Source of the DNA: Curvibacter sp. PD_MW3
GTDB taxonomy: Bacteria > Pseudomonadota > Gammaproteobacteria > Burkholderiales > Burkholderiaceae_C
Direction of reading: 5' to 3'
Assembly: GCA_002633085.1 (NCBI GenBank)
Contig: NSIV01000001.1
Location: 434,001-498,000, forward strand
Length of the DNA: 64,000 nt
Below the pieces are notes generated by a model. It was given only the letters and a program-made list of their open reading frames with translations, ran no database searches and was not told where the DNA came from. This document shows, piece by piece, positions 5,123-31,313 of the stretch (its first letter is position 1; each line of letters opens with the position of its first letter). The translations under genes and the position numbers were made by a program.

Positions 5123-5216
5123 GGTGCATGGGCCTGTCTTGTACAGAGACAAGAGCAAGGGCCATGCCCAGTCCTGGTGGGCTGGCTATGAAATAGATTT
5201 CAATTGAGAAAAATTG

Positions 5217-6167
5217 TCATTGCCCGGACGGATTCCAGCGTCGCGGCTCAAAGCGGAACACCTTGGGGTCGGCCACATCCACCGTGCCCTTGACCCAACC
5301 CAGAAAGGGTGAGCCGTAGGTTTCGACACGGGTGAAGTTCTTCACCACCTCGCGCGCCGCGGCGTCGAGCAACGGCTGGTTGATCTGCTGGTGATGCGAA
5401 TCGCCATGCACCAGCACCACCTGGCCGGCAAAGGCCTGCGTTTCTTCGCGCAGTTGAATGAGGAAGTCACGGTAGCCGGGTTTGAAGTTGCCAGCGCTGG
5501 CAGCCTCGAACTCCGGATTGGCCTGGATGATGACCATCACGCCGGCCAGCTTGCGCTTGCGCGCCAGCTCGAACGCCTGCGCCAGCCAGGCCCGATTGGC
5601 GGCACTGCGTTCGATGAACTCCGGCACCGGGCCGCCGCTGCGGTGCGGACCATGGTAGTTGTTGTCGCTCCCGGTCACATTCAAGCCGACGAACAACGCA
5701 CCACCCGCCTCCCAGCGCACGTTCTCGCGGTAGGCGGCAAAGGCCGGGTCGCTGCTCTGGCGTTCCAGTTTCAGCGGACGTTGACCCAGCGCCGTGTCGC
5801 CGGCAAAAAACAGCTCACGCAATTTGGCCAAGCGCTCCAGCGGGTCGTAGCCACCGTTGTTCTTGCGGTGGCAGTCGGTCCACTCGTTGTCGCCGGGCAC
5901 AAAGACCAGCGGGTGGAGAGAACTCTGGAACACATCGAGCATGTCGAGAAATACCTCGTCGCTGCAGACCGAACCACCACTCTTGAAATCACCATCGTGT
6001 ACCACAAAGGCCAGCGGCTTGCGGTTGATCTCGTTCAGCAGGGCCGGCAACTGTTCACGCTCCCAGCGGCTGTACGGCATGTCGCCAAAAAGGCCGAACG
6101 AGACCGGCTGGGCTGCCAGCGTGCCGGCCAGCGCAGCCAGGGCACAGAAAGACAGAAAACGTTTCAT
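5217..6167 (-). CDS. exported metallophosphoesterase
   Basis: 316 residues with an N-terminal signal peptide (M-K-R-F-L-S-F-C-A-L-A-A-L-A-G-T-L-A-A-Q) and a calcineurin-like fold: F-G-D-M-P, V-H-D-G-D-F-K, P-G-D-N-E-W and V-H-G-D-S-H-H carry the expected metal-binding Asp, Asn and His residues, in a divergent form (GDNEW in place of GNHD). Probably periplasmic. The ATG 6167 is preferred over an upstream alternative start because it begins the signal peptide. It follows the FrnE-like gene by 27 bp on the same strand and likely ends that operon. The substrate cannot be told from sequence. Confidence 0.82.
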   Translation of the reverse strand: MKRFLSFCALAALAGTLAAQPVSFGLFGDMPYSRWEREQLPALLNEINRKPLAFVVHDGDFKSGGSVCSDEVFLDMLDVFQSSLHPLVFVPGDNEWTDCHRKNNGGYDPLERLAKLRELFFAGDTALGQRPLKLERQSSDPAFAAYRENVRWEAGGALFVGLNVTGSDNNYHGPHRSGGPVPEFIERSAANRAWLAQAFELARKRKLAGVMVIIQANPEFEAASAGNFKPGYRDFLIQLREETQAFAGQVVLVHGDSHHQQINQPLLDAAAREVVKNFTRVETYGSPFLGWVKGTVDVADPKVFRFEPRRWNPSGQ

Positions 6168-6194
6168 GTGAACCGCCAATGACGCAAGCCAGGC

Positions 6195-6860
6195 TCAGGC
6201 CTGGCCGCTGGCGTCCGCCGCAATCTTGCGCAGGGCCTCCTCGAACACCGCCACCGGCTGGCCGCCGGAGATCAGGTACTGGCGGTTGATGACGATGGCC
6301 GGTACCGAGCGGATGCCAGCCTGCTGCCACTGCATTTCGTTCTCACGCACAACGTCGGCGTAGTCGTCACCAGCCAGGATGGCGCGCGCCTGCGCCGCGT
6401 CCAGTCCCACGCTGGTACAGGCATGGGCCAGCACCTCGGCATCCGACACGTTCTCGGCCCGGCCATGGTAGGCGTTGAGCAGTTCCTTCTTCAGCGCGTG
6501 CTGTTTGTCAGCGCCCTGCAGCGCGGCCCAGTGCAACAAGCGGTGCGCATCAAAGGTGTTCCAGATGCGGCCGCGCCCTTCGGGTTTGAAGGTGAAGCCG
6601 ACCTCGGCGCCGCGCTGACGAATGGTCTCGCGTATCTGCGCCTGCTGCTCGGGCGTGGAGCCGTATTTCTCGGCCAGGTGCTCGCCGACGTCCTGCCCCT
6701 CAGGCCCCATGTGCGGGTTGAGCTCGAAGGGCTGGAAGTGCAGTTCGGCACTGATGTCACCTTGCACATTGGCCAGCGCCTGTTCCAGCGCACCCAAGCC
6801 GACGGCGCACCAGGGGCAGGCCACGTCGGAGACGAAATCGATTTGGAGAGAGGTAGTCAT
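6195..6860 (-). CDS. FrnE-like DsbA-family oxidoreductase
   Basis: 221 residues, cytoplasmic thioredoxin-fold protein of the FrnE/DsbA subfamily. The redox motif is C-P-W-C (Cys15, Cys18) after a first strand typical of the family (I-D-F-V-S-D-V-A-C-P-W-C), and the cis-proline loop is S-V-P-A-I-V-I near residue 187. No signal peptide. FrnE proteins act as disulfide oxidoreductases or isomerases and are linked to oxidative-stress tolerance. It is downstream of arfB (56 bp) and upstream of the metallophosphoesterase. Confidence 0.9.
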   Translation of the reverse strand: MTTSLQIDFVSDVACPWCAVGLGALEQALANVQGDISAELHFQPFELNPHMGPEGQDVGEHLAEKYGSTPEQQAQIRETIRQRGAEVGFTFKPEGRGRIWNTFDAHRLLHWAALQGADKQHALKKELLNAYHGRAENVSDAEVLAHACTSVGLDAAQARAILAGDDYADVVRENEMQWQQAGIRSVPAIVINRQYLISGGQPVAVFEEALRKIAADASGQA

Positions 6861-6916
6861 TTGGTAATCCTAGAAGATCTTGTTAAACCTCGCAGGCGAA
6901 GGACGAATCGCCTCAT

Positions 6917-7342
6917 TCAGTGCGAATCGGACCCGTTGCGCACCCGCCCGCGCAGGGCCTTGGTCTGGGAACGCTGGCTCTTGCCTTCCAGGCGCCGCTG
7001 GCGCGAGCCGTAGGTCGGCTGGGTGGCGCGGCGCGTCTTGGGGGGGCGGGCCACGCTGTTGACCAGCTCGTGCAAGCGCGAGAAGGCATCCAGCCGGTTC
7101 AGATCCTGGCTGCGGTGCTGCTGCGCCTTGAGCACCAGCACGCCGTCTTGTGTGATGCGGCTGTCGCGCAGCGCCAGCAGGCGCTCCTTCACATCCTCGG
7201 GCAGCGACGAAGCCCGGATGTCGAAGCGCAGGTGCACCGCGCTGGAAACCTTGTTGACATTCTGGCCGCCGGCGCCTTGCGCGCGGATGGCGCTGATCTC
7301 AACCTCGGACTCGTCGATCTGGAGCAGCGCGGGCAGGGTCAT
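6917..7342 (-). CDS. arfB: peptidyl-tRNA hydrolase ArfB (ribosome rescue)
   Basis: 141 residues. Class I release-factor-like domain with the catalytic GGQ (Gly25-Gly26-Gln27 in A-Q-G-A-G-G-Q-N-V-N-K-V) and a basic C-terminal tail (K-S-Q-R-S-Q-T-K-A-L-R-G-R), as in YaeJ/ArfB. It hydrolyses peptidyl-tRNA on ribosomes stalled at the end of broken mRNA; the tail inserts into the empty mRNA channel. It lacks the stop-codon recognition domain of RF1/RF2. It lies 18 bp after trhP in the same operon. This genome also has tmRNA in the same window, so ArfB is the backup route. Confidence 0.95.
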   Translation of the reverse strand: MTLPALLQIDESEVEISAIRAQGAGGQNVNKVSSAVHLRFDIRASSLPEDVKERLLALRDSRITQDGVLVLKAQQHRSQDLNRLDAFSRLHELVNSVARPPKTRRATQPTYGSRQRRLEGKSQRSQTKALRGRVRNGSDSH

Positions 7343-7360
7343 GAGCGCGCGGGTGCCGAA

Positions 7361-8737
7361 TCAACCGACCACCGGCTCCGGCGTCTCGACAACGAGGTTC
7401 ACGTAGCGCGCCACGAAGGCACCCACACTGCTGGCCGGCAGCGGCAGCCAGACGGTGTGACCGGAGCCCGGCGCCACGTCGATGGCTTGCCCTTCCGCGT
7501 TTTCCATGCGGGTGATGTCGTAGTCCACATTGCCACCGGGCTGGATCAGCTCCAGCCGGTCACCCACCGAAAACTTATTCTTCACGTTGACCTGGGCCAG
7601 GCCACGTGGGGCGTCGAAGGCCACCACGTCACCGACGTACTGACTGCGGCCCGACTCGGAATAACCGCGCAGGTAGTTCTGCGTTTCCTGCGGTGTGTGG
7701 CGCTGGTAGAAGCCCGAGGTGTAGCCGCGGTTGGCCAGGCCTTCGAGCTGGCCGATCAGGGCCGGGTCCAGGCCACGGCCGGCCACGGCGTCATCAATCG
7801 CCTGGCGGTAGCTCTGCACCGTGCGCGCCACGTAGTAGGCGCTCTTGGTGCGGCCTTCGATCTTGAGCGAGTCGACGCCGATCTCCACCAGGCGCTGGAT
7901 GTGCTCGATGGCCCGCAAGTCCTTGGAGTTCATGACGTAGGTGCCGTGCTCGTCTTCCTCGATCGGCATGAACTCGCCGGGACGGTTGCTTTCTTCCAGC
8001 AGGTAGGAGATCGAGTCGCGCGCCTCTTTGGGCAAGGTCTGCCCGCCGCCGCCACAACCCTGGGCCGCAGCGCGTTCCGGCGAGAGCACGTCACCACTGG
8101 CGTCGACCTGCGCGGTGTGCGTCTTGTAGTCCCAGCGGCAGGCATTGGTGCAGGTGCCCTGGTTGGCGTCGCGGTGGTTGAAGTAACCCGACAGCAGGCA
8201 GCGGCCCGAGTAGGCGATGCACAGCGCGCCGTGCACGAACACTTCGATCTCGCTGTCAGGGCAGTCCTGGCGAATCTGCTCCACCTGATCAAGCGACAAC
8301 TCGCGCGACAGGATCACGCGCTTGACGCCGGCCTTGTTCCAGAAGCGCACGGCGGCAGCATTCACGGTGTTGGCTTGCACCGAAAGGTGGATCTCCATCT
8401 CGGGCCAGGTTTCGCGCACCATCATGATCAGCCCGGGGTCGGACATGATCATGGCGTCCGGCTTCAAGGCAATGACCGGTGCCATGTTGGACAGGTAGTT
8501 CTTGATCTTGTTGCCGTGTGGAAAGATGTTGGAGACCAGGAAGAACTTGCGTCCGAGTTCGTGCGCGCGATCGATGCCGCGCTTGAGCACGGCCAGGTCG
8601 CCGAAGTCGTTGTTGCGCACACGCAGCGAGTAGCGTGGCTGGCCGGCGTAGATGGCATCCGCCCCAAAGGCGAAAGCCGTCTCCAGCATGGCCAGCGAGC
8701 CGGCCGGGGCCAGGAGTTCAGGCGCCTTGCGCTTCAT
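7361..8737 (-). CDS. trhP: tRNA U34 hydroxylase, U32 family (TrhP/YegQ)
   Basis: 458 residues, peptidase U32 family. It begins M-K-R-K-A-P-E-L-L-A-P-A-G-S and carries the conserved Cys set in G-A-L-C-I-A-Y-S-G-R-C and G-T-C-T-N-A-C-R-W expected to hold an iron-sulfur cluster. YegQ/TrhP makes 5-hydroxyuridine at tRNA position 34, the first step to cmo5U; reports on E. coli tie TrhP activity to prephenate. The ATG at 8737 overlaps the aroQ stop as ATGA, so translational coupling is likely; the open frame continuing to 9088 is aroQ shadow. It has a glycine-rich insert (G-C-G-G-G-G-Q) after the Cys cluster. Confidence 0.92.
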   Translation of the reverse strand: MKRKAPELLAPAGSLAMLETAFAFGADAIYAGQPRYSLRVRNNDFGDLAVLKRGIDRAHELGRKFFLVSNIFPHGNKIKNYLSNMAPVIALKPDAMIMSDPGLIMMVRETWPEMEIHLSVQANTVNAAAVRFWNKAGVKRVILSRELSLDQVEQIRQDCPDSEIEVFVHGALCIAYSGRCLLSGYFNHRDANQGTCTNACRWDYKTHTAQVDASGDVLSPERAAAQGCGGGGQTLPKEARDSISYLLEESNRPGEFMPIEEDEHGTYVMNSKDLRAIEHIQRLVEIGVDSLKIEGRTKSAYYVARTVQSYRQAIDDAVAGRGLDPALIGQLEGLANRGYTSGFYQRHTPQETQNYLRGYSESGRSQYVGDVVAFDAPRGLAQVNVKNKFSVGDRLELIQPGGNVDYDITRMENAEGQAIDVAPGSGHTVWLPLPASSVGAFVARYVNLVVETPEPVVG

Positions 8738-9189
8738 TTCGTTTCTGCCAATTGGGCCAGACCGGCAATGGCCAGCGCGTACCCGTTGACGCCGAACCCG
8801 GCCATCACCGCCTTGGCTGCCGGCGAAATGTAGGAGTGGTGGCGGAATTCCTCGCGCGCATGCACGTTGCTGATGTGCAGCTCGATCAGCGTCACGCCGG
8901 TGCCCTTGATGGCATCGTGCAGCGCAATGCTGGTGTGGGTGTAGGCACCGGCATTGAGGATGACACCGGCCAGTTGGCCCGCGGCCTGCAGGCGGCCGGC
9001 TTCGTGGAGCCAGTCCACCAGCTCGCCCTCTTGGTTGCTCTGGCGGAAGTCCAGCGCCAGGCCGTTGGCGGCACAGGCCCGTTCGCACAGGGCTTGCACG
9101 TCGGCCAGTGTTTGCGAGCCATAGACCGCCGGCTCGCGCGTGCCAAGCAGGTTGAGGTTGGGACCATTGAGGACGAGAACGGTTTTCAT
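8734..9189 (-). CDS. aroQ: 3-dehydroquinate dehydratase, type II
   Basis: 151 residues, converts 3-dehydroquinate to 3-dehydroshikimate in the shikimate pathway. It has the N-terminal N-G-P-N-L-N-L-L-G, catalytic Tyr23 (A-V-Y-G), N-x-G-A-Y-T-H-T-S-I-A and E-L-H-I-S-N-V-H-A-R-E-E-F-R with the catalytic His. Family length (about 145-150) fits the ATG at 9189 rather than the upstream alternative at 9207. First gene of the aroQ-trhP-arfB operon; its stop overlaps trhP by 4 bp. Confidence 0.96.
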   Translation of the reverse strand: MKTVLVLNGPNLNLLGTREPAVYGSQTLADVQALCERACAANGLALDFRQSNQEGELVDWLHEAGRLQAAGQLAGVILNAGAYTHTSIALHDAIKGTGVTLIELHISNVHAREEFRHHSYISPAAKAVMAGFGVNGYALAIAGLAQLAETK

Positions 9190-9284
9190 GGGGAATTCCC
9201 TAGCCAAAGGGGTGCAGATCAGCAGATGGCCAATTGTGCCACTGGGCTACCATCGACCCATCACGAGGGATAAGGAAGACATGC

Positions 9285-10571
9285 ATGACGACGCCCCGAC
9301 TCAATGAACTCGACGCCTCCCAGCTTGCGGTGCGACTGGCGCGGCGCGAGATCAAGGCCGAAGACCTGGCCATCGCCTGCCTGGAGCGCGTAGCCGAGCG
9401 TGAAGACGACGTCCATGCCTTCGCCCACCTTGATGCCGTCAATGCCCTGGCGCAGGCCCGGGCGCTTGACGCCGGGCCGGTGCGCGGCCTGCTGCACGGC
9501 CTGCCCATCGGCGTGAAAGACCTGTTCGACACCACCGACCTGCCCACCGGCTACGGCTCGGCGCTCTACGCCCACCACCGCCCGGTGGCCGATGCCGCCA
9601 CCGTGGCCCTGTGCCGCGAGGCCGGCGCCGTGGTGATGGGCAAGACCGTCACCACCGAATTCGCCTACTTCCAGCCCGGCCCCACCTGCAACCCACACAA
9701 CACGCAGTTCACCCCGGGCGGCTCATCCAGCGGCTCGGCCGCGGCAGTGGCCGACCACATGGTGCCGCTGGCGCTGGGCACGCAGACGGCTGGCTCCATC
9801 ATCCGGCCGGCCGCCTTCTGCGGCGTGGTGGGCTACAAACCCAGCCACGGCCGCGTGGTCGGGGCCGGCGTGAAAAGCCTCTCGCCCACGCTGGATGTGA
9901 TCGGTGGCTTTGGCCGCAGCGTACGCGACGTCGCCCTGCTGGGCGCCGTGCTCACCGGCGACCGGCGCCTGTTCGAATGGGGCGAGCACGGGGCGCCGCG
10001 CATCGGCCTGTTCCAGACGCCGGCCTGGCCACAAGCCGACGTCGACACGCAAAACGTCTGGTCGCTGGCCACGCAGGCACTGGCCACACACACCGATGCC
10101 TGCCAGGACGTGGCCATGCCGCAGAACTTCGGCGACCTGATTCAGCTGCAAAAAGACGTGATGACCTTCGAGATGGCACGTTCGCTCAGCCACGAACGGC
10201 TGCGCCACCGCGAGGCCTTGAGCGCACAGCTGGTGGCGCTGCTCGATGCCGGCATGGCAATCAACGGTGCCACCCACGACGCCAACCTGCAGCGCACCGC
10301 CGACTGGCGCCTGCGCATCGACTCGCTGTTCGAACGACACGACGTGCTGCTGACCCCCAGCGCCATCGGTGAAGCGCCCAAAGGCCTGGAGGCCACCGGC
10401 GACCCGCTGTTTTGCCGCAGCTGGTCGCTGCTGGGCCTGCCCTGCGTGCACCTGCCTTTTGCCACCGGCGCCATGGACCTGCCGGTAGGCCTGCAACTGG
10501 TGGGTCGCTTTGGTGAAGACCACAAGCTGCTGGCCGCAGCGCACTGGGTACACGAACGGCTGACACGCTGA
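9285..10571 (+). CDS. amidase signature family hydrolase
   Basis: 428 residues. Amidase-signature enzyme with the Ser-cisSer-Lys triad visible: Lys in I-G-V-K-D-L-F-D, Ser in G-G-S-S-S-G-S-A-A-A and nucleophile Ser in T-A-G-S-I-I-R-P-A. It hydrolyses a carboxamide; the substrate cannot be deduced. It is not obviously GatA: the length is short, and no gatB or gatC adjoins it. Start ATG 9285 has AAGGAAG upstream; an earlier in-frame start at 9234 lacks a site. It is followed 9 bp later by a nitroreductase. Confidence 0.88.
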   Translation: MTTPRLNELDASQLAVRLARREIKAEDLAIACLERVAEREDDVHAFAHLDAVNALAQARALDAGPVRGLLHGLPIGVKDLFDTTDLPTGYGSALYAHHRPVADAATVALCREAGAVVMGKTVTTEFAYFQPGPTCNPHNTQFTPGGSSSGSAAAVADHMVPLALGTQTAGSIIRPAAFCGVVGYKPSHGRVVGAGVKSLSPTLDVIGGFGRSVRDVALLGAVLTGDRRLFEWGEHGAPRIGLFQTPAWPQADVDTQNVWSLATQALATHTDACQDVAMPQNFGDLIQLQKDVMTFEMARSLSHERLRHREALSAQLVALLDAGMAINGATHDANLQRTADWRLRIDSLFERHDVLLTPSAIGEAPKGLEATGDPLFCRSWSLLGLPCVHLPFATGAMDLPVGLQLVGRFGEDHKLLAAAHWVHERLTR

Positions 10572-10580
10572 AGACCCAAC

Positions 10581-11171
10581 ATGACTGAGCAACAGAACAC
10601 AACGCCGGACACCACCCTGGCTGCCCTGCTGGGCCGCCACTCGATTGGTCCGCGCTGGATGGTGGCCCCTGGCCCGAATGACGCGCAATTGACCCAGGCG
10701 GTGCAAGCCGCCTTGCGGGCACCCAACCATGGACGCATGAAACCCTGGCGTGTGGTCACGGTGAGCGAGGCGCAGCGCCCCGCCCTGGCCGAGCTGTTCG
10801 AACAGTTCGCCCGCGACTCTGGCAAAAGCGCCGAGGACGTGGCCATCGAACGCGAGCGCGCCTACAACGGGCCGGTGCTGGTGGCCTGGGTGGCGCGCAT
10901 CGACAGTGGCGTGGCCAAGGTGCCGCCGCACGAGCAATGGATCTGCGTCGGTGGGGCCTTGAGCAATTTCATGAACGCGCTGCACCTCATGGGGTTTGGC
11001 GCCAAGATCCTGAGCGGCCGCAAATGCCAGCACCCGACGCTGGTGCAGGCCTTCTGTCAGGCTGGCGAGCAACTCGTGGGCTTCGTCTGCATTGGCACGC
11101 CCACGCGCGAACTGGAACCCCGGGAGCCGGACGACCCGCGCCCACTGCTATCGGCCTGGTCCGTGCGCTAA
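10581..11171 (+). CDS. nitroreductase family flavoprotein (YdjA-like)
   Basis: 196 residues, nitroreductase fold binding FMN. Seen: R-H-S-I-G-P near the N-terminus, A-L-R-A-P-N-H-G-R-M-K-P-W-R (flavin-binding region) and G-A-L-S-N-F-M-N-A-L-H-L-M-G-F-G-A. It most resembles the small YdjA-type nitroreductases. It probably uses NAD(P)H to reduce nitro or quinone compounds; the natural substrate is unknown. Its end overlaps the convergent MFS gene by 4 bp. Confidence 0.88.
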   Translation: MTEQQNTTPDTTLAALLGRHSIGPRWMVAPGPNDAQLTQAVQAALRAPNHGRMKPWRVVTVSEAQRPALAELFEQFARDSGKSAEDVAIERERAYNGPVLVAWVARIDSGVAKVPPHEQWICVGGALSNFMNALHLMGFGAKILSGRKCQHPTLVQAFCQAGEQLVGFVCIGTPTRELEPREPDDPRPLLSAWSVR

Positions 11172-12340
11172 ACCGACCGGTGGCGCAGGCGCCAAACCTG
11201 CCAGGCACACAGCGTGGCCAGCACGCCGCTGGCCAGCGCTGCCCAGAACACGCTGACCAGGCCAAAGCGCGCGCTCAAGACGCCACCGGCCAGGCCGGTC
11301 AGCACCCCCGGCAGTCCATAACCCAACACCGCGTACAGGGCCTGGCCACGGCCGCGCAGCGTGCCGGGAAAATGGTGCGACAACAGCGCAATGCAGACCG
11401 AGTGATGCGCGGCAAAGGTCAGCCCATGCAGCGCCTGCGCCAGCAACAACAGGGGCCAGACAGCGGCGCTGGAAGCGGTAACCCCCATGCGCAGTACCGC
11501 CACTGCGGCACACACAACCAGCCAGGCCGTGAGGCTAAAGCGCGGCAGCCAACGGCTTTGTGTGAAGAACCAGGCGATTTCCACGATGACCGAGACCGCC
11601 CACAACAGGCCGATCATGGTCTTGCTGTAGCCCAGGGCGTCAAGGTAGAGCGAGAAGAAGATGTAGATGCCCATGTGTGACAGCACATGGAAAAACGCCG
11701 TGGCAAAAAACCATTGCACGGAACGTTTTTTCAGAATGGGCAGCACCGGCTGCTTTTTCTCGTGTGCCGGCACCGCCTCTTTCAGGTCGGGCAACCACCA
11801 GACACTGGCCACCACCGCCAACAGCGAGAGCACGGTCCAGGCCGGGAAATGCCCCATGCCGAAATGCTCGAACCAGGCACCGGCGGCAAACACCGTGACC
11901 AGAAAACCGAGCGAGCCCCACAGGCGCACGCGGCCATAACGCTTGGCGTCGAATGCACCGCCGCTGCTGACCAGATGGGCCATGGCGGCCTCGCTCATCG
12001 GCATCATGGCGCTGGTGTGCAGGAACATCAGCCCCAGCACCGCAGCCAGCCACCAGAAGCCGCCTTCGATCCACAAGCCGCACGACACCACCAGCGCCAC
12101 CGTGGCGCCGAAGCGTAGCAGCTTGACGCGCTCGCCGGTATGGTCACTCAGCCAGCCCCAGGCATAAGGTGCGACCAGGCGCGTAGCCGACTGCACGGCC
12201 GTCAGCAGGCTGATGGCAACAATGCCCAGGCCCAGGTCCTTGAGCCAGAGCGGCAGGTAGGGATTGAAAAACCCGATGTGGGCAAAGTAGCTGGCCGACA
12301 GGGCCGCAAAAGGCGCGAGATGGCGCCGGCTGTTGGGCAC
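11168..12340 (-). CDS. MFS transporter, HcaT/MFS_1-like
   Basis: 390 residues with about 12 predicted membrane helices in two halves. The N-terminus (S-A-S-Y-F-A-H-I-G-F-F-N-P-Y-L-P-L-W-L) resembles the MFS_1-like group that includes the phenylpropionate carrier HcaT; W-G-W-L-S-D-H-T-G-E-R is the loop 2-3 MFS signature. The start is GTG at 12340, 10 bp after the tautomerase stop, so these two are likely cotranscribed. The substrate cannot be assigned. Confidence 0.85.
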   Translation of the reverse strand: MPNSRRHLAPFAALSASYFAHIGFFNPYLPLWLKDLGLGIVAISLLTAVQSATRLVAPYAWGWLSDHTGERVKLLRFGATVALVVSCGLWIEGGFWWLAAVLGLMFLHTSAMMPMSEAAMAHLVSSGGAFDAKRYGRVRLWGSLGFLVTVFAAGAWFEHFGMGHFPAWTVLSLLAVVASVWWLPDLKEAVPAHEKKQPVLPILKKRSVQWFFATAFFHVLSHMGIYIFFSLYLDALGYSKTMIGLLWAVSVIVEIAWFFTQSRWLPRFSLTAWLVVCAAVAVLRMGVTASSAAVWPLLLLAQALHGLTFAAHHSVCIALLSHHFPGTLRGRGQALYAVLGYGLPGVLTGLAGGVLSARFGLVSVFWAALASGVLATLCAWQVWRLRHRSV

Positions 12341-25033: not shown

Positions 25034-25993
25034 TCATGCTTCAACCGCGACTTGAGACGCGGGAAAGAAAGTCACTCTCGCAATGCTCAAATCACCTTGT
25101 GCTTCCACCTGAACAGGTTCGACGCGCGTTCCTTTTGCGTGCAAACAGGTAATCCGAGGCATCCTAAGTGCGACAAGCAATGTAACCAACACATGTGTCT
25201 TCGGCCCCATCGGCACCACCACAATATGATTAGCCTGATCTAGCAGTACAACTTGTTCACACATTAACCGAAAAGCGGCCGACAAGTCCCCAAGTGGAAG
25301 CGTAAAAGTCTTTGTCGCGGCCTCGAGTATCACTGCGTTCTCGGTCAGCACTCTGACTGAGTCAGGATCGTCATCAGTTTTTTGAGCGACACAGCAATAG
25401 ACACTATCCGGCTCGAGTCTGTCATAGACGGCAAGGGTCGCGTATTTGTCATAACCGAGTCCAAAGATAGCAGCTGTACTCCGAAATCCTCCCGAAATCC
25501 CCTCAAAACCAGGAAATGAGACGATCTCCGAAATGGACAGCGGTTGAAACTCACTTAGGTAACGGCCATATGAGTAGACGAAGTCAATTTCAAGTGGAGC
25601 TTGATATTCAGAGAAACGGGCCCAAGTGAGTATCGCGCCGTACCACACCCTAGTCATCACTGAATAATCCACCAGCAATCTAATTGGCTTACCGTTAGCC
25701 AGCCGAGCTAAGGCCTCAAGCTTTTCAAAGATGCAACGCTCATCCTGGCCACCAAGTGGAACCTCCACTGCGACTCCCATCGCATACTGAAAGTACTTAT
25801 CGTTCTCCTCACGACTTAAAAGAGTCGCGCCATCGCGAAATCCGAGCACCACATTCGAATTAGCAGCATCATTTCCAACTAGCTTTGCTACGTGGGTTGA
25901 ACGTGCCTCAAACCCAGAACTGAAGACTGCCAAGTCGTAGTATTTCGGTCCCTTGGGAAGCTCAGAAAGCATCTCAACGCTATGAAAGTGCAT
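25034..25993 (-). CDS. unknown protein, last gene of the island operon
   Basis: 319 residues, no signal peptide, no family I can name. The N-terminus has a strand-loop pattern (Y-D-L-A-V-F-S-S-G-F-E-A-R-S) and a second one in P-I-R-L-L-V-D-Y-S-V-M-T-R, consistent with a Rossmann-like alpha/beta fold. The last 60 residues hold I-V-V-V-P-M-G-P-K-T-H. It begins 1 bp after the AAA ATPase stop, so both are made together; in such pairs the partner is often a sensor or effector. AT-richer than the flanking core genes. Confidence 0.7.
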   Translation of the reverse strand: MHFHSVEMLSELPKGPKYYDLAVFSSGFEARSTHVAKLVGNDAANSNVVLGFRDGATLLSREENDKYFQYAMGVAVEVPLGGQDERCIFEKLEALARLANGKPIRLLVDYSVMTRVWYGAILTWARFSEYQAPLEIDFVYSYGRYLSEFQPLSISEIVSFPGFEGISGGFRSTAAIFGLGYDKYATLAVYDRLEPDSVYCCVAQKTDDDPDSVRVLTENAVILEAATKTFTLPLGDLSAAFRLMCEQVVLLDQANHIVVVPMGPKTHVLVTLLVALRMPRITCLHAKGTRVEPVQVEAQGDLSIARVTFFPASQVAVEA

Positions 25994-25994
25994 G

Positions 25995-27899
25995 CTAGAT
26001 TTCCAAGACCGTTTGCTCGCGAAGCCGCCCTACATTCACCGACACCTGCGCCAAAATAAGCGGCAAACGCTGCGCCTTATTTCTTCTGGGCAGCAATCCG
26101 AATAGGGGAGCGAACAGAAATGCCAAATGGAACACACCTTCACACGGTCCATTTGCTCCATTGTGGTTATTCGTTCTGGCCGGCGTTAGTAATGACAACT
26201 GCACGGCTTGCTTTACAAAATCCTGCAAGTCACTGCCATCGTCTGCACGAATCTCAATCGACGAAATGAAATCGGACCCCAATCTTCTAGAGGCAAATGT
26301 CCTTTGCATGAAGGTTCCAATCGCCGTCATGTATTTATATGTTCGGATCCCATGCGGCGGCTCGCTCTGCACGCGACTTAGCGTATCACGCGCAATAGAC
26401 TCAAGAACCTCGTTCTGAACTCCCGCGTCAAGAGGATAGCGAGTCGGCAATCCGGCGTTCGAACTAGCCACGAGATTCTTTGAAAGCGCGTTCAACAATC
26501 GCATAAGCCGACGCGCATTGCCATCCGCGCAGCGAACTATCATCGCCTCACCGCAATAAACACGGAGCTTTGCGTTCCCTATCTTCTTCGCTAATGCATC
26601 ACGCAAAATTAGCCCGCCATGCATCTTTCTCAGGATTTCATTTCGAAATCGATTCCTGTCATTCGTCAATAGACGCTGCGCACGAACTATCGTAGGCTCG
26701 TTTGCGTACAAGGCCAGCAAGTCCATGAATCTCACCATCTCAGATGGCGATTCAACACTCTTCTCTTCAACAAGTGGGGAAGGACCCAGTAGTTGGTTGA
26801 GGGTCAAGGAATTTTGTTCCTGTGTGTTGAGTCGAATTCGACGTCGGAACACCTCGCGCGCAAACTGAAGAAAGTCCGAGTCATCCTGTACACCACGACT
26901 GTCTATGGGCATTTGATCGACATAGACGTATTCGAAATCATGCCCATTCCGCACAGGATCGCCAACGTTTGTTTCCAACGTGTGATGCGCAAATGGCATA
27001 GTGGCGATCTTAAAAACCAGGTTCCCCGCTGCGGTGCGCAGATGTGTGTTCAGAATTCGGTGATGCGCTGTCGTTAAGTACTCCGCTTCATCGATGCAGA
27101 TCATCCATAGCGCATCTGCCGGAATTCCAATGTGAAGCGAAAGAACTTGTATCGCATATCGAATAGGAAGAAAAAGCTCACTATCAAAATAGTCGTTAAG
27201 ATCTTCAAGACCTTCTTGCTTCGCTCGTCGCCGTGCTATCGAGTCGATTCGAATCATTTCCACGCGAGCTAGTAACATCCTCAATGAGTCGAGCGTTGTC
27301 ACCACATCGCTGCCACGTGACCAAATTTTTGATAGTTCAGCACAGACTTCCAACTCGGCGATCTGCCTATCCAGCTGCTTCTCAAGATAATGATCAATAC
27401 AACTTCTTATGATCGGTATCAGGGCTGCACAGCTATGCAGATTTAGCCGCCATTGAAAGAAAAGTTCCGCACCGAGGTCATCCTGCCAGGGCTTGTTCTT
27501 TAGGCTCCCGACCAAGCCAATGTTTGTCGGAACATAAATTCCGATCACACCTCGACTCAGCGCATCTCTAGCATAATCGTATGCATGCTCAGGTTGCTGT
27601 GCAGCCAGAACGATGTGATCGTGTGCCAACATGCGAACCCACGTCGTTTTTCCAGAACCTCTCGAACCAAGAAGAATATGGTTCTTCCCAGTCAGAAGAT
27701 TGGCAAAATTCTTTGGCGGCACAAAGTACCTTACCGTCTTTTCAACGGACAGCTGCTTAGCGTTGTCAACTTCGAAGGCTTTAGAGACTATCGCAACATC
27801 CTCCGTAGCGAATGCTCTATTCACTGGCCTAGCCTGGAACGAACTGGGTCTTTCCCTTCCCCGATCTTTCCTTCCTGGCTTTGATCTTTCCATGCTCAT
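25995..27899 (-). CDS. AAA+ P-loop ATPase, ORC/CDC6-like
   Basis: 634 residues. Walker A is G-S-R-G-S-G-K-T (78-85) and Walker B is L-W-M-I-C-I-D-E-A-E-Y-L (Asp270-Glu271), in the arrangement of ORC/CDC6-like AAA ATPases often seen in accessory islands. The remaining two thirds are helical with no named domain. The ATG at 27899 overlaps the stop of the upstream metallophosphoesterase (ATGA); the extension to 27932 is part of that gene. Presumed motor or switch of the module; it could hydrolyse ATP on DNA. Expression may depend on transcription through the IS element upstream. Confidence 0.82.
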   Translation of the reverse strand: MSMERSKPGRKDRGRERPSSFQARPVNRAFATEDVAIVSKAFEVDNAKQLSVEKTVRYFVPPKNFANLLTGKNHILLGSRGSGKTTWVRMLAHDHIVLAAQQPEHAYDYARDALSRGVIGIYVPTNIGLVGSLKNKPWQDDLGAELFFQWRLNLHSCAALIPIIRSCIDHYLEKQLDRQIAELEVCAELSKIWSRGSDVVTTLDSLRMLLARVEMIRIDSIARRRAKQEGLEDLNDYFDSELFLPIRYAIQVLSLHIGIPADALWMICIDEAEYLTTAHHRILNTHLRTAAGNLVFKIATMPFAHHTLETNVGDPVRNGHDFEYVYVDQMPIDSRGVQDDSDFLQFAREVFRRRIRLNTQEQNSLTLNQLLGPSPLVEEKSVESPSEMVRFMDLLALYANEPTIVRAQRLLTNDRNRFRNEILRKMHGGLILRDALAKKIGNAKLRVYCGEAMIVRCADGNARRLMRLLNALSKNLVASSNAGLPTRYPLDAGVQNEVLESIARDTLSRVQSEPPHGIRTYKYMTAIGTFMQRTFASRRLGSDFISSIEIRADDGSDLQDFVKQAVQLSLLTPARTNNHNGANGPCEGVFHLAFLFAPLFGLLPRRNKAQRLPLILAQVSVNVGRLREQTVLEI

Positions 27900-28712
27900 T
27901 TGACGACTCCAGCAGCCGGCAGCAGTGCCCACATACGATCAACAGTATTTACATCTCCGTACACGCGAAGTCCCTTTGCCCGACCTATTTCGGAGAACAC
28001 TTCAAATGCGACTTGGGTTTTAACATGCGCAAGGTGCGGATGCTTTGAGTTCACATCCTCCCATGTACAGGTTCCTTGTGCGCTTATGAGTTGATTGACT
28101 AGAGGCTCAACCTGAGCTTTGATTTCGGCGATGGTAGTCAGGGATCCAAACCCTTCCGTTGCATTCAGTCCGGTGTGACTGTTACTCGCACGCCAACTTC
28201 CTGACACCTCAAAATTCCAAGTCTCTACATAACCATAGACGGCATGTGTATTTGGATTTCTGCCTTCTACATTAATAATGTGGAACTGATTTTGTGTAGT
28301 CCCTGTCCACTGAGTCTCTAGTTCTGCGGAAAAACTTCCTGCCCCCAAGATTGTTAATGGATGACCGTTTGTTACCGCATGAGTGTGCTGCAAATGAGGT
28401 ACATGTTTATGTCCATGTATCGCGATATCAACTCGATGCTTGGACAGCAATTCACGCAAATTCTCTGCATTGGTGAGTGCACTGTAGTCCGGAATGTTCG
28501 GCACCAGGTCTGAATACTGAATTGGGTGATGGTGCAATAAACAGATGCGTGAGTGACTGGAATCGAATGGGATGGTTGCCAAGAAAGAATCCAACTCGTT
28601 AAGAGTCTCTTGAGACACCAAGCCATTATGCTTGCCCGTCTCGGGATCCGGTGAATCGAAGGCCGCCGTATTCAATGCGATGACCAATGAATGCAGAGAA
28701 TCCCAAACGATA

Positions 28713-28720
28713 AAGTAAGG
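28713..28720. repeat. target-site duplication, left copy
   Basis: AAGTAAGG directly outside the left IS end; identical to 30044-30051. Confidence 0.93.
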
Positions 28721-28748
28721 GAGGGTGTCCCGAATTTTGTGTAAACGG
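28721..28748. repeat. IS256 left terminal inverted repeat
   Basis: Begins GAGGGTGT and ends TTTTGTGTAAACGG; pairs with 30016-30043 at 22 of 28 positions, differing at position 2, 9-12 and 14. Confidence 0.88.
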
Positions 28749-28756
28749 GGCGAGCG

Positions 28757-29971
28757 TTAATTCTTGGGCATTCTCTCCTCGAACTGGATGGTAAACCGGG
28801 TCAATGCAGCCTTCCAGTCGCGCAGCGGCATCGTCCACTTTTTGCTGATGTTGGCCAGGGCCAGATAGAACAATTTCAGCAGTGCGTCATCACTGGGGAA
28901 GGAGCCCCGGTTCTTGGTGATCTTGCGCAGACTCATGTTCACCGACTCAATGGCGTTGGTCGTGTAGATGATGCGCCGTATCTCCGGCGGGTAGTCGAAG
29001 AACGGCGTGATGCGTGACCAGTTGCTGCGCCAGGATTTGACGATGGTCGGGTAGTCCACACCCCACTTGTCATCGAACTCATTGAGCCGGATGGCCGCTT
29101 CGTCCACGGTGGCGGCGGCATAGATGGTCTTCAGATCAGCGGCAATCTCCTTGCGCAGCTTCCAGCTCACGTAATTCAGGCTGTGGCGCACCATGTGCAC
29201 CAGGCACAGCTGCACGGACGTCTTGGGGTACACCGCCTCGATGGCATCGGGAAAGCCCTTCAGGCCGTCCACGCAGGCAATGAAGATGTCCTGCACGCCC
29301 CGGTTCTTGAGTTCGGTGACCACCTGCAGCCAGAACTTGGCACCCTCGGTCTGCGCGACCCACAGGCCCAGGATTTCCTTTTCGCCCTCCATGCTGATGC
29401 CCAGTGCCAGGTACACCGCCTTGGCACGCACGGCCCCGGCATCACGGGTTTTGACATGGATGCAGTCCAGGTAGACGATGGGGTACAGCGCGTCCAGCGG
29501 CCGGGCCTGCCAGGCTTTGGCCTCGTCCATCACGGCATCCGTCACCGAGGAGATGAGCGTGGGCGAGACCTCGGTGCCGTACATTTCTTCCAGGTGGCTC
29601 TGGATTTCCCGCACGGTCATGCCACGGGCGTACAGCGACAGGATCTTCTCGTCAAAGCCTGCCCAGCGGGTTTGGTGTTTGGGGATGATCTGCGGCTCAA
29701 AGCTGCCGTGGCGGTCGCGCGGGATTTCTATGGGCAGCTCACCAAAGTCACCTTTGAGGGTCTTCTTGCTCTTGCCGTTGCGGGTGTTGCCAGCCGGGTT
29801 GGCCACCGTGTCATTCTTGGCGTGGCCCAGGTGTTCGGCCATCTCGGCTTGCAGGGCGCGTTCCACCAGTTTCTTGGTGAGCAGCTTGAGCAGGCCGTTC
29901 TCACCGATGAGGTCTTCAGGTTTCTTGTAGTCAGCCAGCAGGCTGTCGATCAGTTCGTTCGTGACGGTCAT
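28757..29971 (-). CDS. IS256-family transposase
   Basis: 404 residues, the normal length of mutator-type (IS256) DDE transposases. Catalytic residues: Asp169 in Y-L-D-C-I-H-V-K, Asp235 in C-V-D-G-L-K-G-F-P and Glu342 in T-T-N-A-I-E-S-V-N. N-terminal DNA-binding part includes A-E-M-A-E-H-L-G. The gene is intact from ATG 29971 to its stop 36 bp from the left IS end, so the element is probably active. GC content is higher than the island around it, showing separate origin. Confidence 0.96.
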   Translation of the reverse strand: MTVTNELIDSLLADYKKPEDLIGENGLLKLLTKKLVERALQAEMAEHLGHAKNDTVANPAGNTRNGKSKKTLKGDFGELPIEIPRDRHGSFEPQIIPKHQTRWAGFDEKILSLYARGMTVREIQSHLEEMYGTEVSPTLISSVTDAVMDEAKAWQARPLDALYPIVYLDCIHVKTRDAGAVRAKAVYLALGISMEGEKEILGLWVAQTEGAKFWLQVVTELKNRGVQDIFIACVDGLKGFPDAIEAVYPKTSVQLCLVHMVRHSLNYVSWKLRKEIAADLKTIYAAATVDEAAIRLNEFDDKWGVDYPTIVKSWRSNWSRITPFFDYPPEIRRIIYTTNAIESVNMSLRKITKNRGSFPSDDALLKLFYLALANISKKWTMPLRDWKAALTRFTIQFEERMPKN

Positions 29972-30015
29972 TTAGTTGCAATTCCATGGGAGTGCAGCAG
30001 TTTCCTGCCAATTGA

Positions 30016-30043
30016 CCGTTTACACAAAAGTTTTTACACCCCC
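30016..30043. repeat. IS256 right terminal inverted repeat
   Basis: Read on the minus strand it begins GGGGGTGT and ends TTTTGTGTAAACGG; the transposase start lies 45 bp inside it. Confidence 0.88.
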
Positions 30044-30051
30044 AAGTAAGG
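30044..30051. repeat. target-site duplication, right copy
   Basis: AAGTAAGG directly outside the right IS end; identical to 28713-28720. Eight bases fits the IS256 family. Confidence 0.93.
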
Positions 30052-30506
30052 AGCTTTGTCAAATGCTCCAATCTTCGCATCATCAATTCGTTTACGAAAG
30101 ATGAGGTCAGGTTGCATTAATGGGGCATAGCGAAAATTTTGCCAGAAACTTGTCGGCACCAGCTTCATAACTGGCCAATGCAAATCGTGATTGCCCGGAA
30201 CAAAGAAAATGTTTTCGGTTGCAACGCCCATCGCATCAGCAATTTTCTGAACAACCTCACTAGCCAAATTGAACTCCGTTGGATCTGCGTAGTTGCTTAT
30301 ATCGCCAGTAACGAACAGCTGGTCTACGCCTCCTGCTTGTCGAAATTTTTCAGAGCCAACATGCTCGACAAACACTTTGAGAAAATCTTTCGATTTACTC
30401 AGTTTCTTTTCGTGTGGCAATTCGTGAGGACATAGGTCGAGTGCTCGAGCCTTGCTCCCGACGTGAAGGTCGCTAATCACCGCAATTCGAACAGGTTTGA
30501 CCATAC

Positions 30507-31313
30507 TTATAGATTTGATATCAAGACCTCTCGCGTACGCTCCCTGCAGGATGTATCGGCTGCAATGCTCCTCTGAACTTCAACCGTATACCCTCCCCAC
30601 TTTTCGCTAAATTCTTCAACGTCGTCACAATCTGCGTAAGACAAGACGAAGAATGCACCGGCATCGTTTGCCATCTCCAACAGTTCAAAGAGTCTATTCA
30701 AGTCACCTACACCGAACTCATCCGGGCCGTATTGAAAGTCCAGAGAGTGATTTCGCTTTGCGTAAGGAGGATCGACGTATATAAAGTCCCCCTGTTTTAT
30801 CGCGCCCGAAAGCGCAAGCTCGAAGTCACAATGAATCAACTCCGAATTACTCAAGATTTCGGAAGCTTCCCTCAGAACTTCGAGTGATGGTACGGATCCT
30901 GTGCGTCCCGCCCCATATGGAACGTTGAACCGCCCATTAGCATTTGTTCTATACAGTCCGTTGAAACAAAAACGATTTAGATAAATAAACCGCGCAGCTC
31001 TTTCAACGGGATCAAGGACAAGCTCATCCGTTGCGCGCAGTCGGTAGTAGAACTCCTGATCAACAGGGTACTGCTGGAGCAGCGCCACCACAGCTGAGGG
31101 ATCTTCCCGGACAACCTCATAGCACTCCATCAACTCCGCATTGATGTCGACTAGCAAGGCAGAGCTTGGCTTGATGTGAAAGAAAAGAGAGGCCGAACCA
31201 CAGAACGCTTCGATATAGCGACCGTTACCTCCTGCAGTTTGCGCCGCATGCCAGCAATGAGACAACGTTTCTTTGATTTGTTTTTTACTGCCGGCCCACC
31301 GGAGGAATGTCAT
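30507..31313 (-). CDS. DNA adenine-N6 methyltransferase, Dam/D12 class
   Basis: 268 residues. N-terminal F-L-R-W-A-G-S-K-K-Q, S-adenosylmethionine motif E-A-F-C-G-S-A-S (35-42), catalytic D-P-P-Y (181-184) and the D12-class Y-L-N-R-F-C-F-N-G-L-Y-R between them. It methylates adenine N6 in a short DNA site; the Dam-like order suggests GATC-type targets but this is not provable here. First gene of the island operon, 2 bp before the metallophosphoesterase. No cognate restriction nuclease of a named type is present. Codon use is AT-richer than the flanks. Confidence 0.92.
   Translation of the reverse strand: MTFLRWAGSKKQIKETLSHCWHAAQTAGGNGRYIEAFCGSASLFFHIKPSSALLVDINAELMECYEVVREDPSAVVALLQQYPVDQEFYYRLRATDELVLDPVERAARFIYLNRFCFNGLYRTNANGRFNVPYGAGRTGSVPSLEVLREASEILSNSELIHCDFELALSGAIKQGDFIYVDPPYAKRNHSLDFQYGPDEFGVGDLNRLFELLEMANDAGAFFVLSYADCDDVEEFSEKWGGYTVEVQRSIAADTSCRERTREVLISNL

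Follow-up and report, generated by a model that had tools for sequence, protein, structure and literature searches.

A conserved cassette of Dam-type methylase, metallophosphoesterase, ORC/CDC6-like ATPase and CARF6 protein in which host Dam seems to replace the cassette methylase

Introduction

Between positions 25034 and 31313 of a 64,000-nucleotide stretch of Curvibacter sp. PD_MW3 DNA (contig NSIV01000001.1, positions 434,001 to 498,000; the whole stretch is called the window here), the minus strand encodes, in reading order, a Dam-type adenine methylase (Dam), a metallophosphoesterase (MPE), an ORC/CDC6-like ATPase and a 319-residue CARF6 protein. An earlier reading of these letters (the original prediction) had taken the four genes for an undescribed, modification-linked defence module. 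The locus raises the question of whether the genes belong together and, if they do, what the methylase does for the other three. They were found to be a conserved module in which, judging from the distribution of both genes, the housekeeping Dam of the host seems to replace the Dam of the cassette within the window's clade. The parts are catalogued; their joining into one system was not found in the literature searched.

Conservation and distribution of the cassette

A scan of genome contigs with an alignment of the ATPase returned at least 45 loci, with 43 true loci among the matches listed, mostly at 25–36% identity to the query. The MPE gene lay directly upstream of the ATPase gene in all 43 listed loci and the CARF6 gene directly downstream in 41, the other two stopping at a contig edge. 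The co-occurrence expected by the original prediction is thus conserved, and the 319-residue protein is, as claimed, always last after the ATPase in the 41 of 41 listed loci where the contig continues. A D12 (Dam-type) methylase gene was adjacent in 36/43 listed loci. Profile searches detected Dam in 34 of the 43 (32 directly upstream, 2 convergent after CARF6), and in L060 and L075 a sequence-divergent D12 methylase adjoined the MPE, the L060 gene (479 amino acids, aa) being directly upstream. L075 had been considered a Dam-less exception, and was rejected as such on finding a D12 domain in its adjacent, divergently read 443-aa gene (5.9e-11, 43 bits against a cut-off of 22). Cassette junctions were mostly overlapping or within a few bases. 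Because the MPE-ATPase order recurs in all 43 listed loci found via the ATPase alone, the cassette is not a chance arrangement, and the four genes are a conserved module. Two other matches, L097 and L098, were discarded as Walker-only chance matches (E about 1e-4). In the Pedobacter locus (L065), a 290-aa open reading frame (ORF) directly after CARF6 was a second, distant member of the MPE family (4e-14).

According to the record titles, the listed loci came from Proteobacteria, Actinobacteria, Bacteroidetes, Planctomycetes, Acidobacteria and Gemmatimonadetes. Across the 34 complete loci, distances correlated between Dam and ATPase (r 0.56), MPE and ATPase (0.78) and CARF6 and ATPase (0.76), with a Mantel p of 0.001 each. 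The nearest relative of the window among the listed loci was L096, from a betaproteobacterial bin (ATPase 45%, CARF6 42%, Dam 52%). When 100 kin of the window genome were searched with the ATPase, its own genome and one remote PRTase-type cassette were recovered, close kin being mostly without the cassette. Used as a single-protein query on genome contigs, the window ATPase found no relative; viral contigs scanned with two alignments gave no matches, and none of the phage records matched the ATPase. In 398 genomes the PADLOC model PDLC01912 alone found the window only, because each CARF6 model is narrow. In the same 398 genomes PF24389, the Pfam family of the window ATPase, had matches in 83, over cut-off in 14; 13 wider-family ATPase loci were opened, 12 of them from these matches and one from G054.

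The order Dam-MPE-ATPase-CARF6 was also present on plasmids of Cupriavidus pinatubonensis, Methylobacterium and Sinorhizobium meliloti SM11. A second S. meliloti plasmid was matched by both the ATPase and the MPE queries, and the relatives of the Cupriavidus MPE and of its ATPase fell in the same five plasmid records. Plasmid locations of this kind, near repC in Sinorhizobium, and the integrase, TniB or TniQ gene found close to three of the Dam-less copies would suit a cassette that serves mainly for addiction or plasmid stability, comparable to restriction-modification genes, which kill cells that have lost the methylase. Cassettes were, however, also located on contigs of up to 2.9 Mb, and four of ten neighbours from a hand-picked, biased selection belonged to defence families, one of them at a PRTase-type cassette. 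Maintenance of mobile elements as the main role thus appears distinctly improbable.

Cassette Dam and host Dam

Host Dam was defined as the E. coli-type enzyme recognized by model NF008152, the criterion being the gap in bit scores between 379–447 and about 150 or less. Over 44 genomes, six scored 397–447 bits and the rest about 150 or less. These six were the hosts of L061 (Alteromonadaceae), L068 (Aliivibrio), L069, L079 and L081 (Pseudoalteromonas) and L083 (Vibrio), and their loci, together with L062, were the seven of the 43 listed loci without an adjacent D12 methylase. L062 was left uncounted (a 1.3-Mb bin with 382 bp of upstream flank and 93.7% DNA identity to L061), and the plasmid records L046, L047, L050 and L051 stood outside the host-Dam count. 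The upstream flank of L061 measured only 495 bp. The nearly identical L061 and L062 cassettes come from bins labelled Alteromonadaceae and Nitrosomonadales, which would point to misbinning or recent transfer.

A fresh test on 295 genomes from the same order as the Vibrio host recovered two known hosts and four further strong carriers, all four without cassette Dam and all four with host Dam at 379–415 bits. In another order (341 genomes) there was one strong new carrier, whose cassette Dam was present and was its only NF008152 match. Strong matches only were followed in these order-wide searches (6/19 and 2/28, respectively). Altogether 48 carriers were counted, the window included. None of the 38 with an adjacent D12 methylase had an E. 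coli-type Dam, and all 10 without one had host Dam (379–447 bits), giving a Fisher p of 1.5e-10 that ignores kinship. Remnants of Dam were not found by tblastn in 14 loci, in a search that likewise failed to pick up the D12 genes present in L060 and L075. Pfam detected a D12 domain in 0/24 scanned neighbours of Dam-less cassettes, the L060 gene apart and with part of the neighbours scanned.

In a tree built from ATPase and CARF6, the methylase state changed three times, each in step with host Dam, and one of these changes fell in the window's own branch, where L132 and L133 stand beside the window and L096. An AU test run under a simpler model on a subset of 27 rows rejected the grouping of all Dam-less cassettes into one clade (p-AU 3.2e-6). 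Coding L075 as Dam-less had given four changes, with pairs at 3 vs 0 plus one tie, and was revised after its D12 gene had been found. In the window's clade, the host's own Dam thus seems to stand in for that of the cassette, which would imply GATC methylation as the mark. Read most simply, this distribution would mean that GATC methylation is required by the other three genes and can come from a resident Dam.

The same pattern of cassette Dam and host Dam is also predicted if the link is a by-product, a second Dam being useless or disturbing mismatch repair while the other three genes work independently of methylation. A distant cassette in L035 and L036 (see below), if functional, works without either methylase, as such a by-product would allow. 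Against this, none of the 38 counted Dam-negative hosts of the clade had lost the adjacent methylase, and several sister types have retained methylases belonging to other families; we consider a by-product unlikely. Substitution by host Dam would likewise be accounted for by regulatory methylation, with Dam controlling a toxic MPE-ATPase-CARF6 unit via promoter-near GATC sites and no discrimination between DNAs. Within 300 bp upstream of the operon in the window there are 3 GATC sites versus 1.2 expected, but upstream of 42 cassettes 47 were observed versus 41.1 expected, that is, without general clustering, and a purely regulatory role is in our estimate very unlikely.

Organization and state of the window copy

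The features of the window locus are as follows.

30507-31313, minus strand: Dam methylase gene; intact ORF, D12 adenine-N6 methyltransferase with a DPPY motif
30034-30504, minus strand: MPE, N-terminal piece, with motifs SDLH, GDI and GNHD
27896-28687, minus strand: MPE, C-terminal piece, carrying motifs HHH and HGHKH; start as set mechanically in the ORF list
28721-30043, minus strand: IS256-family insertion that splits the MPE gene after the GNHD and before the HHH motif
28757-29971, minus strand: IS256-family transposase gene (NF033543, 1.6e-127)
28713-28720: target-site repeat, copy 1, 8 bp
30044-30051: target-site repeat, copy 2, 8 bp, identical to copy 1
25995-27899, minus strand: ORC/CDC6-like AAA+ ATPase; longest ORF from 27932, Walker A and B present
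25034-25993, minus strand: CARF6 protein, 319 aa, with a predicted tandem CARF/SAVED-like nucleotide-sensor fold

The methionine at ATG 27899 (M12 of the long ORF) was nearly invariant in a 41-row alignment, and a start there is more likely for the ATPase than one at 27932. With this start, the successive genes are separated by 2 bp, overlap by 4 bp and are separated by 1 bp, the spacings given in the original prediction, which had also placed them on one strand; that strand is the minus strand. The AT-richer island that it had noted was also evident: between 25 and 31 kb, the GC fraction per 1-kb bin was 0.46–0.50 (0.61 in the bin with most of the insertion sequence, IS), and elsewhere in the window it was mostly 0.57–0.69, falling below this only at 31–32 kb (0.55) and within the initial kilobase (0.49). 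At the interruption of the MPE gene the original prediction had only hinted, by mentioning ‘an IS-free version’. The MPE gene is split by the insertion at 28721-30043, flanked by the exact 8-bp repeat, and the two pieces were treated separately in all searches. Since neither piece contains the full metal site, the effector of the window copy is taken as dead, and the copy is probably dead beyond its methylase. With the effector interrupted, at most methylation would remain in the window genome, and the window methylase would be what is left of an interrupted cassette.

Protein families and conserved residues

The window Dam matched TIGR00571 over cut-off (6.6e-58) and PF02086 (MethyltransfD12, 1e-39), its best solved relatives being the DpnII methylase (2dpm, 1.9e-41) and E. 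coli Dam (8.8e-25), and it was itself the sole NF008152 match in the window genome. The cassette Dam motif D181-P-P-Y184 was invariant in 16/16 alignment rows. A specificity for GATC would be in keeping with DpnM as the best solved relative and with the host Dam seen in all ten counted Dam-less carriers.

The N-terminal MPE piece matched Metallophos at 8.6e-10, while the C-terminal piece matched it below cut-off (0.0019) and NF053862 far below cut-off (6.9e-13). The MPE metal motifs were invariant in 40 alignment rows. The MPE profile was nearer to nucleotide phosphodiesterases (2xmo, 7.5e-19, which we take to be one) than to SbcD/Mre11 (2q8u, 4.4e-4, a weak match). Plain restriction could be read from these data, the MPE acting as nuclease and the ATPase as scanning motor to cut GATC-unmethylated DNA, with CARF6 as only a scaffold or brake. 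It would fit the invariant metal motifs, the presence of SbcD/Mre11 among the solved relatives of the profile and the methylase, from cassette or host, in 48/48 counted carriers of the clade. It fits less well with the greater nearness to nucleotide phosphodiesterases, with sister slots holding PRTase, HD or kinase proteins, which are not known as DNA nucleases, or with a CARF6 lysine (K265) kept in 41/41 rows, and plain restriction is therefore regarded as rather unlikely. Neither Pfam nor PADLOC found a restriction endonuclease (REase) domain in the window genes, though the MPE itself could be a nuclease.

The ATPase matched PF24389 (ORC-CDC6-like) at 7.9e-81 over profile positions 2–567 of 571, and its residues G89, K95, D281 and E282 were invariant in 41 alignment rows. 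In its AlphaFold2 model (pLDDT 82.4), the best-aligned solved chains were 2qen, 2fna, ORC and Cdc6, with TnsC, BrxC and Clp-type AAA+ proteins close behind.

The 319-residue protein had been put forward as an unknown that could be effector or sensor. It instead matched six PADLOC CARF6 models, best of all PDLC01912 (1e-47) and also PDLC01915 (1.1e-35). The structure prediction that had been suggested for it yielded a confident model with a CARF Rossmann-like fold, a call made from the aligned CARF domains, the Foldseek list being headed by unrelated proteins at similar E-values. G263 and K265 were invariant in 41/41 alignment rows and form a motif of the G-x-K type, presumably that of the CARF ligand loop. 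Because the protein belongs to CARF6, a sensor is more likely than an effector, and on its predicted fold it would be a nucleotide-sensor-type protein and putative ligand binder.

Sister cassettes and limits of the methylase rule

In sister cassettes, the MPE slot was occupied by a PRTase (PF24390), an HD protein (PF24391) or a fused kinase; the effector slot is exchangeable. PRTase-type cassettes of Moraxella, Paraburkholderia, Klebsiella and L033 contained an N6 methylase of another family, and an HD-type cassette (L034, 6672-11727) was led by a C5-cytosine methylase, not an adenine methylase. These methylases point in part in the same direction as the window's clade. The genus Klebsiella has Dam, and a Klebsiella type that keeps its own methylase there is expected if its mark is not GATC. 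With part of the neighbours scanned, no methylase was seen in L037, L038, L039 and L041 and only a weak one in L045. Only within the window's clade does the methylase rule hold cleanly. In L040 (8494-12213), a single 1239-aa protein combined a kinase-like region, an ORC-like ATPase and CARF6 (PDLC01925, E 0, nearly full length). CARF6 models matched nine of the ten proteins first scanned at related loci; the tenth, from L041, was the wrong gene, and the L041 gene beside the ATPase also matched.

On the Klebsiella quasipneumoniae plasmid NZ_CP084790.1 (L053, 2771-7873), the order was N6 methylase, PRTase, ORC-like ATPase and CARF6, near repA and a mercury-resistance operon of a conjugative IncF plasmid, the ATPase not being among the listed genes. 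A relative of the Moraxella CARF6 was present in 144 plasmid records, 128 of them from Klebsiella, of which this one record was opened.

Comparison with known systems

The PADLOC matches of the window proteins add up to no named system, in agreement with the original prediction. Its description of the module as undescribed holds for the four-gene set as far as the literature searched extends, and does not hold for the parts, for which PADLOC and Pfam already have names. The CARF6 clade of PADLOC, to which the 319-residue protein belongs, spans at least PDLC01910 to PDLC01925 (the latter a kinase-AAA-CARF6 model), and these models name the protein, not the four-gene set. The window ATPase falls in the first family of the Pfam trio PF24389 (ORC-CDC6-like), PF24390 (PRTase-CE) and PF24391 (HD-CE), and sister MPE-slot proteins fall in the other two. 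From the consecutive numbers and ‘-CE’ names, we would guess that the three were noticed together as parts of conflict systems. The MPE matched only general Metallophos models and distant equivalogs.

Well-studied CARF proteins respond to Cas10 products (PMC11229360). The CARF effectors ancillary to type III CRISPR are likewise linked to Cas10, whereas in 46 cassette carriers Cas10 of the Csm1 type was over cut-off in 0/46 (weak partial matches in 5/46) and of the Cmr2 type in 0/46; the controls matched in 7 (Csm1) and 4 (Cmr2) genomes, over cut-off in 3 and 1. In DS-8 and DS-9, metallophosphatase catalytic residues are necessary for phage defence, DS-9 pairing its metallophosphatase with a HAD phosphatase and DS-8 holding a NACHT domain (PMC13092281). 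Both window MPE pieces matched DS9_1 at about 1e-12, but with 48.2 and 47.3 bits versus a cut-off of 420.

Ssp and BREX likewise combine DNA modification with ORC/CDC6-type ATPases, and BrxC was among the nearest folds of the modelled window ATPase. For Orc/Cdc6 ATPases, it has been proposed that they encircle DNA and localise restriction (PMC10853773). Unlike those systems, the window genes had no match to PglZ, BrxC, BrxX/PglX, phosphorothioate genes or REase, and the cassette includes a CARF protein. From CBASS with SAVED effectors (Cap4, Cap5) the cassette differs in having no CD-NTase among the window genes, where the search was made, and a CARF6 without fused nuclease. The PRTases of the sister cassettes L052 and L053 matched PRTase_III-A models of type III-A retrons, whereas the window cassette has the MPE instead.

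In the literature searched, neither the four-gene set nor the Dam rule was found, as far as the available parts of PMC12839542, PMC13092281, PMC7641849, PMC4012209, PMC12669027, PMC7159879, PMC9503650, PMC7824862, PMC11229360 and PMC10853773 extend, and across the literature searched the term ‘CARF6’ occurred in a single, unrelated paper. An earlier prediction of parts of this system in the literature is likely.

Proposed mechanism

On these comparisons of sequences and models, we hold it to be slightly probable that the four genes form a modification-linked immune cassette with an ATPase-CARF6 switch and an exchangeable effector. The cassette Dam or a resident housekeeping Dam would keep the cell's own GATC sites adenine-methylated, a step suggested by the gene content and by the replacement by host Dam, D12 and host Dam being complementary in the clade. 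The ORC/CDC6-type ATPase, in which the Walker residues are invariant, would then load on foreign DNA without the mark and change state. Relatives of this ATPase type form rings on DNA. CARF6, which has a predicted CARF fold and follows the ATPase in a conserved order, may be coupled to it and gate this loading by binding a nucleotide with a source other than the Cas10 of type III CRISPR. Finally, the effector would cleave nucleotides or nucleic acid and so stop the invader or the cell; the slot holds a calcineurin-like phosphoesterase with invariant metal residues in the window type and is seen to be exchanged for a PRTase, HD or fused kinase elsewhere. Whether these steps amount to a new class of immunity is more doubtful: as a tentative suggestion, an ORC/STAND-type ATPase would read DNA methylation, this reading being converted into or gated by a Cas10-independent nucleotide signal at CARF6, with an interchangeable nucleotide-acting effector and with the housekeeping Dam of the host borrowed where present.

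Several observations weigh against such an immune cassette. Of the ten host Dam genes, just one scores above the NF008152 equivalog threshold (441 bits). Hosts with Dam come from Vibrio, Aliivibrio, Pseudoalteromonas and Alteromonadaceae, plus four genomes from the order to which the Vibrio host belongs. A paired sign test on the state changes gives 3/3 with p 0.25, three changes being too few for significance, and L062 shows neither methylase and would, if counted, be a carrier without either. Practically the same distant MPE-ATPase-CARF6 cassette is carried by L035 and L036, two genomes of one genus (6912-11370, beside thiamine-synthesis genes; MPE profile 7e-7, ATPase 4.5e-27), with no methylase among seven Pfam-scanned L036 neighbours and no NF008152 match in either genome. 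Methylation may therefore be dispensable in parts of the wider family, or be supplied by another methylase type. The modification-linked logic of the original prediction gains support in the window's clade, where cassette Dam is missing if host Dam is present, and not from L035 and L036. CARF6 was missing alongside 3/13 opened wider-family ATPase loci (L042, L043 and L044), and in the Pseudoalteromonas cassette of L047 the Dam position holds a 614-aa protein without Pfam match (5126-6970). No recognised DNA nuclease was found in the cassette, the MPE profile fitting nucleotide phosphodiesterases better than SbcD/Mre11. The window genome also contains four matches to the Cas10-palm family, one of them just over cut-off (27.3 vs 27 bits); these are probably cyclases, since E. 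coli is also over cut-off.

That cassette Dam and host Dam exclude each other predicts the mark (GATC) and a system that should be switchable by dam mutation. If the proposal is correct, housekeeping Dam methylation has an immune use, with a chromosomal methylase contributing to an immune system, and a CARF pathway independent of CRISPR exists, with a ligand to seek. Some of the solitary Dam-type methylases known from Dam-negative bacteria may find an explanation here as well.

Neighbouring genes

Other genes lay beside several cassettes. Next to the Methylobacterium cassette (L050, 11472-14944), a CHAT-domain protein and a second metallophosphoesterase were encoded on the opposite strand and are perhaps another defence unit. 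Near the Dam-less cassette of L069, a gene at 5290-6666 combined a cyclase domain with a SMODS-type C-terminal sensor domain and is a candidate for nucleotide-signalling defence. In L047, a type IV restriction enzyme gene was located just beyond CARF6.

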